From: Oligella urethralis DSM 7531 | Lineage (GTDB): Bacteria > Pseudomonadota > Gammaproteobacteria > Burkholderiales > Burkholderiaceae_B | Direction of reading: 5' to 3' | Assembly (NCBI RefSeq): GCF_000372065.1 | Contig: NZ_AQVB01000005.1 | Coordinates: 46,725-110,724, forward strand | DNA length: 64,000 nucleotides | Part shown: positions 5,803 through 9,748 of the stretch, one piece after another | Position numbering within the stretch: the first letter of the stretch is position 1 | How the letters are laid out: every line of letters starts with the position of its first letter | Notes under the pieces: generated by a model | Database searches by the model: none | Told to the model about the DNA's origin: nothing | Seen by the model: the letters and a program-made list of their open reading frames with translations, nothing else | Program-made: the position numbers and the translations under genes

Positions 5803-7977
5803 ATGACTCAGTACAAGAAAATAGAATCTTTACAAGTTGAAGAGACACTTTTCAATTTGATTAATAATGATATCTTAGCCAATCACCCCCACAAGTTGGA
5901 CCGTGATGAGTTTTGGAAAAACTTTTCCGATCTGGTAAAAGCACTAGCACCAAAAAACAAGGCCTTACTTGAAAAGCGTGATGCCTTACAAGCAAAAATC
6001 GATCAATGGTATCAGCAGAATCCTGGCCCTATTCAAGATATGGAGGCTTACAAAGCCTTTTTAAAAGAAATTGGCTACTTAGTCGATGCACCGGCCGATT
6101 TTAAGATCAGCACAGAAAATGTTGACCGTGAAATCGCCGAACAAGCCGGTCCGCAACTCGTCGTACCCGCAACCAATGCCCGCTACTCCCTCAATGCAGC
6201 CAATGCACGCTGGGGCAGCCTGTACGATGCGCTTTACGGCACCGATGCCATTGATCAGGACGGTGAATTAGCGCCCACTGGCGAATATAATCCACAGCGC
6301 GGGGCTGAAGTCATCGCTTTCGGGCGTCGCTTCTTAGATGAGAGCATCCCGCTCGTTGAGGGTTCACACGCAGATGCCGTTGCTTACCGCATTGAAAATG
6401 GTGAGCTCAAAGTAAGACTAAACAATGACCATGAAACAACGCTAAAGCATAATGAGCTCTTCGTTGGTTTTAATGGCGATGCCGCGGCACCTAGCTCAAT
6501 GGTTTTCTTACATAACGGCTTACATTTCGATATTCTAGTCGATAAAAATCACCCCATCGGCCAGCAAGATCCCGCCGGGATTAAGGATATTGTAATGGAA
6601 GCGGCACTATCCACCATTATTGACTTTGAAGATTCGGTAGCTGCTGTTGACGGTCCTGATAAAGCCTTAATTTATCGTAATTGGTTAGGCCTAATGACCG
6701 GTGAACTAAGCGAAGAAATTGCTAAAGACGGTAAAGTCTTTGTCCGTCGTTTAAACGAAGATCGCGAGTACTTAAGTGCGAGCGAGCAAAAGCCTTTTAA
6801 ACTACCAGGCCGCTCCCTATTGTTCTGCCGCAATGTGGGTCATTTGATGTCTACCCCTGCCGTGTTGGACGAAGCAGGCAATATGATCCCTGAGGGCATT
6901 TTAGATGCCGTCGTCACCGCCATTATTGCGGGCTACGATCAGGCACGCGATAGCAATAAAAACAGCCGCAATGGCAGTGTGTATATAGTTAAGCCTAAAA
7001 TGCACGGCCCTGAGGAAGTGGCTTTTGCCAATGAGCTTTTTGCTGCGGCTGAGCGTGTAGCTAAGCTGCCTAAAAACACCCTCAAAATGGGGATTATGGA
7101 TGAGGAGCGTCGTACCTCGGTTAACCTTAAAGCATGTATTTACGAGGCAAAAGAGCGTTGCGTGTTTATTAATACCGGTTTCTTAGACCGCACCGGTGAC
7201 GAAATTCACACCTCAATGCTCGCTGGCCCAATGATCCGCAAAGGTGATATGAAAGCAACGCCATGGATCAAAGCCTATGAAGCCAATAACGTGCAGGTTG
7301 GTTTAGCATGTGGTCTGCAGGGCAAAGCACAAATCGGTAAGGGCATGTGGGCCATGCCTGATCTTATGAAAGCCATGCTAGCACAGAAAATCGCCCACCC
7401 ACAATCTGGCGCTACCACCGCTTGGGTACCCTCACCTACCGGTGCGACTATCCACAGCTTGCATTATCACCAAGTGAATGTATTCGATGTACAAGCCGAA
7501 AAAGCAAAAGACAAGACGGACTATCTGGACGATTTATTAACGATTCCGGTCGCTACGGATACCTCATGGTCTGATGCTGAAAAGCAAGAAGAGCTGGATA
7601 ACAACTGCCAAGGTATTTTAGGCTATGTGGTACGCTGGGTAGATCAGGGTGTAGGTTGCTCAAAAGTCCCTGATATTCACAACGTCGGCTTGATGGAGGA
7701 TCGTGCAACGCTACGCATCTCCAGTCAGCATATTTGCAACTGGTTAGCCCATGGCGTGGTCAGTGAAGCGGATGTGGACGCCGCACTTCGTCGCATGGCT
7801 AAAGTCGTTGACGAACAAAATGCTGGCGACCCTTTATACCGTCCAATGTCAGGCAATGAGCAAAGTTCCGCTGCCTTCAAAGCGGCGAGTGACCTAATCT
7901 TTAAAGGTAAAGAACAGCCTAACGGCTACACTGAGCCTTTACTGCATTACTGGCGCGCTGAAGTTAAAAAGGCTTAA
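5803..7977 (+). CDS. glcB: Malate synthase G
   Basis: Protein of 724 residues, the normal length for the monomeric G isoform (E. coli 723). It condenses glyoxylate with acetyl-CoA to malate, completing the glyoxylate shunt with the upstream isocitrate lyase. Seen in sequence: [13 protein letters not shown], the glyoxylate-binding Arg343 in [27 protein letters not shown], the substrate-pocket GCSKVPDI, and the catalytic-base Asp633 in [14 protein letters not shown]. The ribosome site before the ATG is weak (GGATGA). A strong terminator follows. Confidence 0.97.
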
Positions 7978-8014
7978 TCACAGCATCGTTTTAACTAAGC
8001 AAGTCAATTAGCTC

Positions 8015-8049
8015 AAGCCCATGTGCGCAACAATGCACATGGGCTTTTT
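8015..8049 (+). terminator. Terminator of glcB
   Basis: The stem AAGCCCATGTGC / GCACATGGGCTT has an 8-nt loop and is followed by a T-run. Confidence 0.9.
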
Positions 8050-8106
8050 GCTGTCTTTATATTCTCTATTGAAGCTCCCAATACACTTTTCCACCAGTAT
8101 CCGTTA

Positions 8107-8731
8107 TTAACCACAAAAGTTGTGGATAACTTTGTGTATTGCTTGATGAGTTCAAGCTATGTGATTGATTTATAAGCTTAAGTCACAATTGATTACATAC
8201 TAAGCATGCGTGCCGCTTGAGGCCGGTCGACAAGGCCAATGCAAGCCAGAGGTAAAAACAAAAAACCTTGATTAATCAATAAGCTAGCTATTTTTTGGAT
8301 AACATTAAGGTGTCTAGCTAGCGCGACTGTGATCGAAGCTACTAAAGTTTCAAATCACATATAAAGCGTCTAGCACGCCCTGATTTAATGAGCACAGATT
8401 AACCACAAAAGTTGTGGATAACTTTGTGTATTGCTTGATGACTTCAAGCTATGTGATTGATTTATAAGCTTAAGTCACACTTGATTACATACTAAGCATG
8501 CGTACCGCTTGAGGCCAGTCGACAAGGCCAATGCAAGCCAGAGGTAAAAACAAAAAATCGTGATTAATCAATAAGCTAGCTATTTTTTGGATAACATTAA
8601 GGTGTCTAGCTAGCGCGACTGTGGTCGAGGCTCCTAAGGTTTTAAACCACCTATAAAACGTCTAGCATGCCTTGATTTAATCACCATAGATTAACCACAA
8701 AAGTTGTGGATAAACTTTGTGTATTAACTGA
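8107..8731. repeat. 292-bp tandem repeat array with DnaA boxes (two full units plus partial third)
   Basis: Units start at 8107, 8399 and 8691, exactly 292 bp apart. The two full units differ at about 19 positions (about 93% identical), mostly in the last 90 bp; the third runs for about 40 bp before diverging. Each start carries TGTGGATAA, a perfect DnaA box on the minus strand (8121-8129, 8413-8421, 8705-8713), inside CCACAA-AAG-TTGTGG. Each full unit also has a near-match TTTGGATAA (8294-8302, 8586-8594) located between GCTAGCTA and TAGCTAGC arms, and a TTGATTAATCAA-like palindrome (intact in unit 1). No open frame of note is present. It fills most of the 990-nt gap between glcB and phoU. 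Confidence 0.9.
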
Positions 8732-8804
8732 TGAATGCGCTCTATCCCATTGATCTAGCAGCTGATATTAGCTTTGATAAGATTTGAAGCAACACCGCGT
8801 AACT

Positions 8805-8842
8805 TGCTAGCGGTGAGCATAAGTGCTAGCGGTGAGCATAAG
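8805..8842. repeat. Tandem duplication of a 19-bp unit
   Basis: TGCTAGCGGTGAGCATAAG occurs twice, head to tail and without a mismatch, at 8805-8823 and 8824-8842. It lies downstream of the 292-bp array and before the phoU terminator. The rest of 8732-8894 shows nothing recognisable. Confidence 0.9.
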
Positions 8843-8968: not shown

Positions 8969-9727
8969 TTAACTCTCAGCAGAGTCGCCCTCTTCCTCTT
9001 GCGTCTCATACGATGTATTAATACTGTCTCTACTAGCGACTTTCAGTACGTTTTTATTACCAGTGTGACGCACATCCTCACCCTGAACCGTATAAATCAC
9101 ACGCTCAGCCATGTTTTTAGCATGGTCGCCAATACGCTCTAAGGAACGTGCCATAAACATTAAATCGATAGCGGAGCTGATGGTACGTGGATCCTCAATC
9201 ATAAAGCTACTGGTTTCACGTAACACGCTGCGCCACTCTTTATTAATCTTTTTATCACGACGCACCACTTCAGCAGCGGCGATAGGATCGAAACGAGCAA
9301 ATGCATCCAGTACATCATGCAAGTTTTTGACCACCAGACTACCCATATAACTTAGGTCAACAATGGGCTCAAAACGAGCTTGTTGCTCGATCAGGCGTCT
9401 GGCCGTACGCGCCATTTTCTCGGACTCATCCCCAGAACGCTCCAAGTCGGTTAACATTTTAGTGACCGATAAAAGCAAACGTAAGTCAATCGCTGCCGGT
9501 TGTTGACGTGCAATCACCTGAGTAATCAAGGAGTCAATCTCGACTTCCAAGTTGTTTACTTCAATTTCATACTCCATGACGCGCTCAACTAATGCCGTGT
9601 TACCGGAGCTAAGCGTTTCAACTGCGTCATTAATCATGGACTCAACCAAGCCGCCCATGCGTAGAAACTGAGAACGAATTTGCTCTAAAGACTCGCCGTA
9701 ACGGGTACTTGTGTGCTGTTCAATCAT
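8969..9727 (-). CDS. phoU: Phosphate-specific transport system accessory protein PhoU
   Basis: Protein of 252 residues made of two repeated three-helix PhoU domains. The characteristic metal-cluster motifs E-x3-D-x3-E appear in LTDLERSGDESEKMA and SLERIGDHAKNMAE. PhoU restrains PhoR/PhoB signalling and the Pst phosphate transporter at the membrane. The ATG at 9727 is chosen over the in-frame ATG at 9739 because GGAG lies just after the latter and at good spacing before the former. No pst genes or phoBR are adjacent here; its upstream neighbour on the same strand is rpiA. Confidence 0.93.
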   Translation of the reverse strand: MIEQHTSTRYGESLEQIRSQFLRMGGLVESMINDAVETLSSGNTALVERVMEYEIEVNNLEVEIDSLITQVIARQQPAAIDLRLLLSVTKMLTDLERSGDESEKMARTARRLIEQQARFEPIVDLSYMGSLVVKNLHDVLDAFARFDPIAAAEVVRRDKKINKEWRSVLRETSSFMIEDPRTISSAIDLMFMARSLERIGDHAKNMAERVIYTVQGEDVRHTGNKNVLKVASRDSINTSYETQEEEGDSAES

Positions 9728-9748
9728 CTGACACTCCATATTGAAAAT

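Follow-up and report, generated by a model that had tools for sequence, protein, structure and literature searches.

DARS (DnaA-reactivating sequences) are known from Escherichia coli, where they recharge DnaA, the initiator protein of chromosome replication. DARS1 and DARS2 have a common spacing of DnaA boxes in which box I is opposite to boxes II and III, as described in the excerpted part of a review (PMC5742627). The head-to-head arrangement of boxes I and II is presented as characteristic and functionally essential for DARS in passages of another review (PMC10380432). DARS2 moreover requires its own IHF and Fis sites, its two IHF sites being 'separated by only 3 bp' according to the accessible part of PMC4245941, and the spacing of its core, IHF and Fis sites was described as conserved (excerpts of PMC5742627). 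The same excerpts report that datA also depends on IHF. Beta-proteobacterial DARS2-like sites have already been mentioned in print, since both reviews (PMC10380432, PMC5742627), in the parts consulted, place DARS- or DARS2-like sites in other proteobacteria, beta included. On the contrary, the core sequence of DARS2 was reported in passages of PMC4245941 to be conserved specifically among E. coli-related gamma-proteobacteria.

The E. coli K-12 stretches of DARS1, DARS2, datA and oriC were scanned for box triplets with free gaps. The triplet TTATCCACT-5-TGTGGATAA-3-TGTGTATTA was recovered at DARS1 and TTATTCACC-5-TGTGGATAG-3-TGTGAAGAA at DARS2 (the figures are gaps in bp), and both stretches also gave a small number of less strict triplets whose gaps differ. 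No I-5-II-3-III triplet was found in the oriC stretch or in the datA stretch, in which datA lies at what we take to be its place. Offsets here and below take the first base of box II as zero. In DARS2, IHF-type matches lie at +79 and +95 and are 3 bp apart, fitting the spacing given in the excerpts of PMC4245941. DARS1 has no IHF-like match at one mismatch or fewer between -60 and +260. Reading of the mutH region also showed another cluster resembling a triplet, TTATCCCAG-5-TGTGGATAA-3-GGTGTAAGA, some 300 bp away from the DARS2 core (at about 5450-5486 of L124).

Organization of the array

The locus described here lies in the window, i.e. the whole 64,000-nucleotide stretch that was analysed, which belongs to a 2.3-Mb genome assembly in 46 contigs (G000). 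A tandem repeat with a period of 292 bp and 2.1 copies was detected at 8106..8725 (TRF), in agreement with the initial annotation, which had described a 292-bp repeat in a 1-kb gene-free gap. The array lies in this gap, which is flanked by the convergent genes glcB and phoU, and the features of the region are as follows.

5803..7977, plus strand: glcB, malate synthase G, conserved left neighbour
8106..8725, no strand: tandem array, 292-bp period (TRF)
8107..8115, plus strand: unit 1 DnaA box I, TTAACCACA
8121..8129, minus strand: unit 1 DnaA box II, TGTGGATAA on the plus strand, head-to-head with box I, gap 5 bp
8133..8141, minus strand: unit 1 DnaA box III-like sequence, TGTGTATTG, gap 3 bp
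8158..8170, minus strand: unit 1 candidate IHF site at +37, 1 mismatch to WATCAANNNNTTR
8191..8205, no strand: unit 1 candidate Fis site at +70, exact to the loose consensus GNNYANNNNNTRNNC
8294..8302, minus strand: unit 1 near-match DnaA box at +173
8399..8407, plus strand: unit 2 DnaA box I
8413..8421, minus strand: unit 2 DnaA box II
8425..8433, minus strand: unit 2 DnaA box III-like sequence
8450..8462, minus strand: unit 2 candidate IHF site at +37, 1 mismatch
8483..8497, no strand: unit 2 candidate Fis site at +70, exact to the loose consensus
8586..8594, minus strand: unit 2 near-match DnaA box
8691..8699, plus strand: unit 3 DnaA box I
8705..8713, minus strand: unit 3 DnaA box II
8718..8726, minus strand: unit 3 DnaA box III-like sequence, II-III gap of 4 and not 3 (extra A)
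8743..8755, minus strand: unit 3 degenerate IHF element at +38, 2 mismatches by reading
8969..9739, minus strand: phoU, immediate right neighbour in the window genome

Units 1 and 2 open as TTAACCACA-AAAGT-TGTGGATAA-CTT-TGTGTATTG, i.e. box I forward, 5 bp, box II reverse, 3 bp and box III reverse. The three perfect and two near-match boxes that had been annotated initially are all present, the former (TTATCCACA, minus strand) at 8121, 8413 and 8705 and the latter (TTATCCAAA, minus strand) at 8294 and 8586. This inventory nevertheless missed the third box-like sequence, TGTGTATTG, located 3 bp behind box II. In the same way, the CCACAA/TTGTGG inverted repeat described around the perfect boxes does exist but is in fact box I, TTAACCACA, a DnaA box placed head-to-head with box II. 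Compared with the consensus TTWTNCACA, box II is perfect, box I has one mismatch and box III has two, as weak boxes would. This general pattern occurs 7 times across the window for 7.2 expected and is thus not enriched, so that the case rests on the clustering and the geometry of the boxes. The composite pattern CACN6TGTGGATAN4TGTG, with up to two mismatches allowed, has two sites in the window for 0.07 expected, both of them in the array and with no mismatch.

Units 1 and 2 are equal at 273 of 292 positions (93.5%), an identity that points to a recent duplication or conversion. Identity per third is 98, 96 and 87%, and the first two thirds are indeed better conserved, as had been noticed. The partial third unit is also real, but an extra base between its boxes II and III and the degeneracy of its IHF element had been overlooked. 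Its 26-base core variant was found by the free-gap scan (G000:C5:55420), and it has no IHF match at one mismatch or fewer. Units 1 and 2 have the spacing of DARS, with box I opposite to boxes II and III and gaps of 5 and 3; unit 3, with a II-III gap of 4 bp, falls outside the canonical DARS geometry.

At 8013-8050, 3' of glcB, reading of the sequence showed a strong hairpin with T residues behind it. It is probably the glcB terminator, in which case the array would fall outside the glcB transcript. Directly right of the array, a perfect 19-bp tandem duplication, TGCTAGCGGTGAGCATAAG, was observed at 8805-8842. An Rfam search returned two sub-threshold matches only. A mobile origin was considered and rejected, as a 641-bp query had no good match in plasmids or phages but only one weak match in each, covering 11% and 5%.

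GC skew along the 150-kb contig is negative in 30 of 30 full 5-kb bins, near zero (-0.009) in the bin of the array and positive in the last 210 bases only. An origin or terminus by GC skew was rejected since there is no sign switch at the array. As annotated initially, neither dnaA nor gidA adjoins the array: dnaA was located on contig C16 and mnmG/gidA on contig C32.

Comparison with DARS1, DARS2 and datA

Like DARS1, which lies between bioD and uvrB, the array has cores reading I-5-II-3-III with an identical box II, and box III is TGTGTATTA there and TGTGTATTG here. DARS1 has one core, whereas the window has two to three, the two good ones each with an adjoining IHF consensus (one mismatch). 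With DARS2, found by mutH, the array shares the core geometry, and in both the IHF and Fis sites, which are candidates in the window, lie on the side of box III (for Fis in DARS2, see the accessible part of PMC4245941). It differs from DARS2 in the place of the IHF match, at +79 and +95 there and at +37 in the window, and DARS in print have one core per locus. Finally, the array is an intergenic, non-origin cluster of DnaA boxes with candidate IHF sites and in this resembles datA, whose boxes, IHF and intergenic, non-origin place are taken from the reviews. Unlike in the array, no I-5-II-3-III triplet was found in the E. coli datA stretch.

Conservation of the array in the genus

Units of the array were found just downstream of glcB in 7 of the 8 genomes of the genus. 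Counting of the unit in these relatives, which had been suggested initially, gave 20 copies: three in G000, two in G001, four in G002, three in G003, two in G005, two in G006 and four in G007. G004 has no array, and its GlcB is just 64% identical. Such a shared location supports the initial proposal that the box-bearing part is under selection in a DnaA locus other than oriC. Two findings that would have spoken against this proposal, boxes lost in relatives or a commonly dispersed unit, were not encountered: the boxes are conserved in relatives, and the unit is single in its own genome, with elsewhere just core matches of 33-35 bp at one other locus.

A full triplet, defined by gaps of 5 and 3, at most two mismatches in box I, at most one in box II and TGTG in box III, is kept in 18 of the 20 copies. 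The failures are unit 3 of the window (gap of 4) and G003_1, which has no recognisable box I. The search pattern is fitted exactly by 12 of the 20 copies, and six others, besides these two, are off by one base in box I or II. Among the 19 copies whose II-III gap is canonical, TTA of box I, GTGG of box II, TGTG of box III, the IHF core TTGAT and the bases T69, G70, T72, C84 and A85 are each invariant (19/19). The ten bases preceding box I are unconserved in the same 19 copies.

Over positions -14 to +90, two of these canonical-gap copies have a mean identity of 0.68 when they come from one genome (19 pairs) and of 0.66 when they come from different genomes (152 pairs). Moreover, several copies pair across species by position, for instance G001_1/G005_1/G006_1 and G003_2/G007_2. 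A divergence within genomes similar to that between genomes, together with the positional pairing, indicates that the multi-copy arrays are old. From their sequences, recent duplication or conversion is apparent in G000 (0.98) and G002 (0.91).

The spacing of the canonical-gap copies is 292 bp in G000, 179 in G001, 179/233/221 in G002, 293/287 in G003, 179 in G005, 180 in G006 and 295/295/303 in G007. A helical phasing of these 12 spacings was looked for (R = 0.60-0.71) and is not claimed, the spacings being related by descent and the helical repeat having been varied. The far neighbour differs between genomes: it is phoU in G000; in G007 a usp-like gene, assigned by reading, follows TRAP-type genes; and G001, G005 and G006 have a nuoE/nuoF-like operon there (a family call made for G001 only and below cut-off). 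Wherever phoU and the array could both be located in a genus mate, the distance between them is greater than in the window genome.

The near-match box at +173 was absent at that place in the 15 copies examined from other genomes, a comparison made without the two G005 copies and unit 3 of the window. It was rejected as a functional part because its place is not kept in other genomes.

Candidate IHF and Fis sites

The IHF consensus WATCAANNNNTTR, in reverse orientation and at one mismatch or fewer, starts at +37 in 19 of the 20 array copies, the miss being unit 3 of the window. This match is perfect in one copy of the 20 and has one mismatch in the window, as in most. In parallel, a Fis-type 15-mer was observed at +70, exact in 3 of the 20 copies and within one mismatch of a very loose consensus in 15. 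Independent shuffles gave at most 4 Fis-type matches per offset; array copies are of common ancestry, so that the counts per offset are not independent and carry no probability. The genome encodes IHF-alpha, which scores above its cut-off, as well as a Fis homologue with 40% identity, of which the scanned 78-residue stretch scores under both NCBIfam Fis cut-offs.

A third kind of locus was found in G001 and G005, in which the IHF consensus is also located at +37 in 5 of 5 copies, four of them perfect. Triplets at these loci (L169, L170, L171) adjoin unrelated genes. Two of the copies, on contigs C33 and C37 of G001, are near-identical, one lies near a contig end, and they may be one dispersed repeat.

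The triplet across Burkholderiales

The composite pattern was present in 152 of 200 genomes of the family and in 185 of 250 genomes of the order, and a reversed-pattern control was found in none of the same 200 and 250. When the gaps were left free (0-15 and 0-12), a match was obtained in 109 of 150 order genomes, and the control matched twice. Among the matches listed in this free-gap search, 150 rows, there are 139 distinct sites, of which 126 have gaps of exactly 5 and 3.

Locus context was assigned by tblastn. Of 30 loci from the scan of 200 family genomes, 29 adjoin xseA and 29 have exbB, exbD or lpxK close by; the protein resembling ExbB scores under the TolQ/ExbB family cut-offs. Another 33 family loci (L203-L235) were hand-picked to cover genera, favouring the xseA-like variant where a genome has two sites; xseA was found at 31 of these and exbB/lpxK only at one further. 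At the order level, 27 new loci comprised 15 at xseA, 7 at priA, one at comM (by reading), one at a MobF relaxase gene, the window itself and two that were unplaced. None of ten second sites (L158-L166, L168) lies at xseA. The family-wide site was rejected as an oriC for most of the fetched loci, given their location at xseA, the exception being L231, which adjoins dnaA.

Outside the genus, 69 of 79 xseA-linked sites have an IHF consensus whose start falls at +100 to +111, in a set that leaves out L252 with its four cores and includes L212, where only exbB/lpxK was found. In a wider set of 83 sites, IHF matches peak at +106 (36 sites) and +105 (20 sites), for at most 4 in 100 shuffles. The xseA copies of the window genus, two per genome and about 435 bp apart in six genomes, have the IHF consensus at +107 or +108 in 12 of 12 cases, nine of them perfect, and a box-like 9-mer at +199 to +201. 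No xseA site was obtained from G002, in which xseA is cut by a contig end, or from G004, whose XseA is 44% identical.

The exbB/lpxK-xseA site thus has the triplet of the array but differs from it by its IHF consensus, mostly at +104 to +107 and on the other strand. Judging from the offsets (+37 in the array, +79 and +95 in E. coli DARS2 and about +105 at xseA), the xseA site resembles a DARS2 with IHF about one helical turn farther, and in the glcB array the IHF consensus lies much closer.

Several other settings of the triplet were noted. It adjoins priA, encoding the replication restart helicase, at seven order loci (L251, L255-L260), with hemE also present at five, and this is a second recurrent chromosomal site besides xseA. 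In Burkholderiaceae, triplets were found beside a MobF-family conjugative relaxase gene (L158-L163, from G020, G023, G063, G128, G122 and G159), mostly just upstream of it; the relaxase match of L163 is short, and L244 is the same locus as L158. These could be mobile elements with a possible DnaA-binding or DnaA-recharging site. Finally, four triplets were found in about 940 bp beside xseA in another Burkholderiales genome (L252, G253 C1:249540-250477). A TTGATTT element lies near +38 of some of them, and this array may have a separate origin.

Proposed function and alternative explanations

Taken on its sequence, the array is probably a multi-core locus of the DARS type. The box geometry, the conserved place, the IHF consensus at a fixed offset and the genes for IHF-alpha and a Fis homologue are all observed features that are consistent with it. 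By analogy with the steps known from E. coli, ADP-DnaA would bind to each intact unit: boxes I and II would hold two DnaA molecules in a head-to-head pair, and a third molecule at box III would strengthen the complex. IHF at +37 and possibly Fis at +70 would bind and bend the DNA, aiding assembly. ADP would then leave and apo-DnaA would be freed to reload with ATP, and the resulting increase in ATP-DnaA would promote timely initiation at the distant oriC. The two good units, the third being probably weak, would act additively and multiply the effect.

Another explanation is a datA-like locus, in which DnaA-bound ATP is hydrolysed in an IHF-dependent manner, or a plain titration of DnaA by strong boxes. 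It is unlikely, even if several boxes lie within 600 bp together with an IHF consensus and datA needs IHF (excerpts of PMC5742627). The likeness to datA that had been put forward initially is not borne out by the triplet geometry, which both DARS1 and DARS2 showed but which was not detected in the E. coli datA stretch. As for titration, any cluster of consensus boxes binds away some DnaA, which makes it an unavoidable side effect of such a locus, and conceivably its main role. Nevertheless, pure titration would need no exact 5-bp head-to-head arrangement, and gaps of 5 and 3 were found in 126 of the 139 listed sites.

A DnaA-controlled promoter or terminator region for the adjoining genes is clearly less probable again. 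In G001, G005 and G006 the array is flanked by glcB and by an operon with a nuoF-like gene that runs in the same direction, and the xseA and priA sites sit upstream of genes, but the right-hand neighbour of the array varies while the array persists. Moreover, no promoter is expected between the convergent flanks of the window (glcB/phoU) and of G007 (glcB/usp-like gene). A promoter role is thus unlikely in these two genomes and possible in G001, G005 and G006.

Slightly more improbable still is a neutral tandem duplication of a fragment from another DnaA-box region that has no function of its own. It would suit the close identity of units 1 and 2 and the degeneracy of unit 3, but the orthologous copies in seven genomes keep the boxes and the IHF core and not the stretch that precedes box I.

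A secondary origin or origin remnant, another role suggested initially, is scarcely credible: DnaA boxes in a gene-free gap and the near-zero skew in the 5-kb bin of the array might be expected of it, but the skew does not change sign from one side of the array to the other over the 150-kb contig, dnaA-dnaN and mnmG, each with DnaA boxes nearby, are on other contigs, and the array, at odds with an oriC, neither adjoins dnaA/rpmH or mnmG nor lies at a switch of GC skew.

Significance

No paper on a tandem DARS array or on an xseA-linked site was found among the titles and opening lines of abstracts of the open-access papers surveyed, and the tandem arrangement appears to be new by its anatomy. 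Beyond the DARS-type reading, it is conceivable, though doubtful for now, that the glcB array represents a new architectural class. It would be built from a compact and self-contained module roughly 100 bp long (core, IHF at +37 and Fis at +70), repeated head-to-tail in two to four copies, mostly at a spacing of about 179 or 292 bp. The number and the spacing of the copies vary by species and may set the strength of DnaA recharging, and the site at xseA would be an older, DARS2-like and Burkholderiales-wide one.

DnaA recharging was worked out in E. coli, and the present analysis brings candidate recharging sites across Burkholderiales, with an exact geometry and a conserved placement of IHF, as well as a tandem array of them in one genus. 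It makes two questions testable, namely how broadly the DARS cycle is used and whether added cores may tune the timing of initiation.
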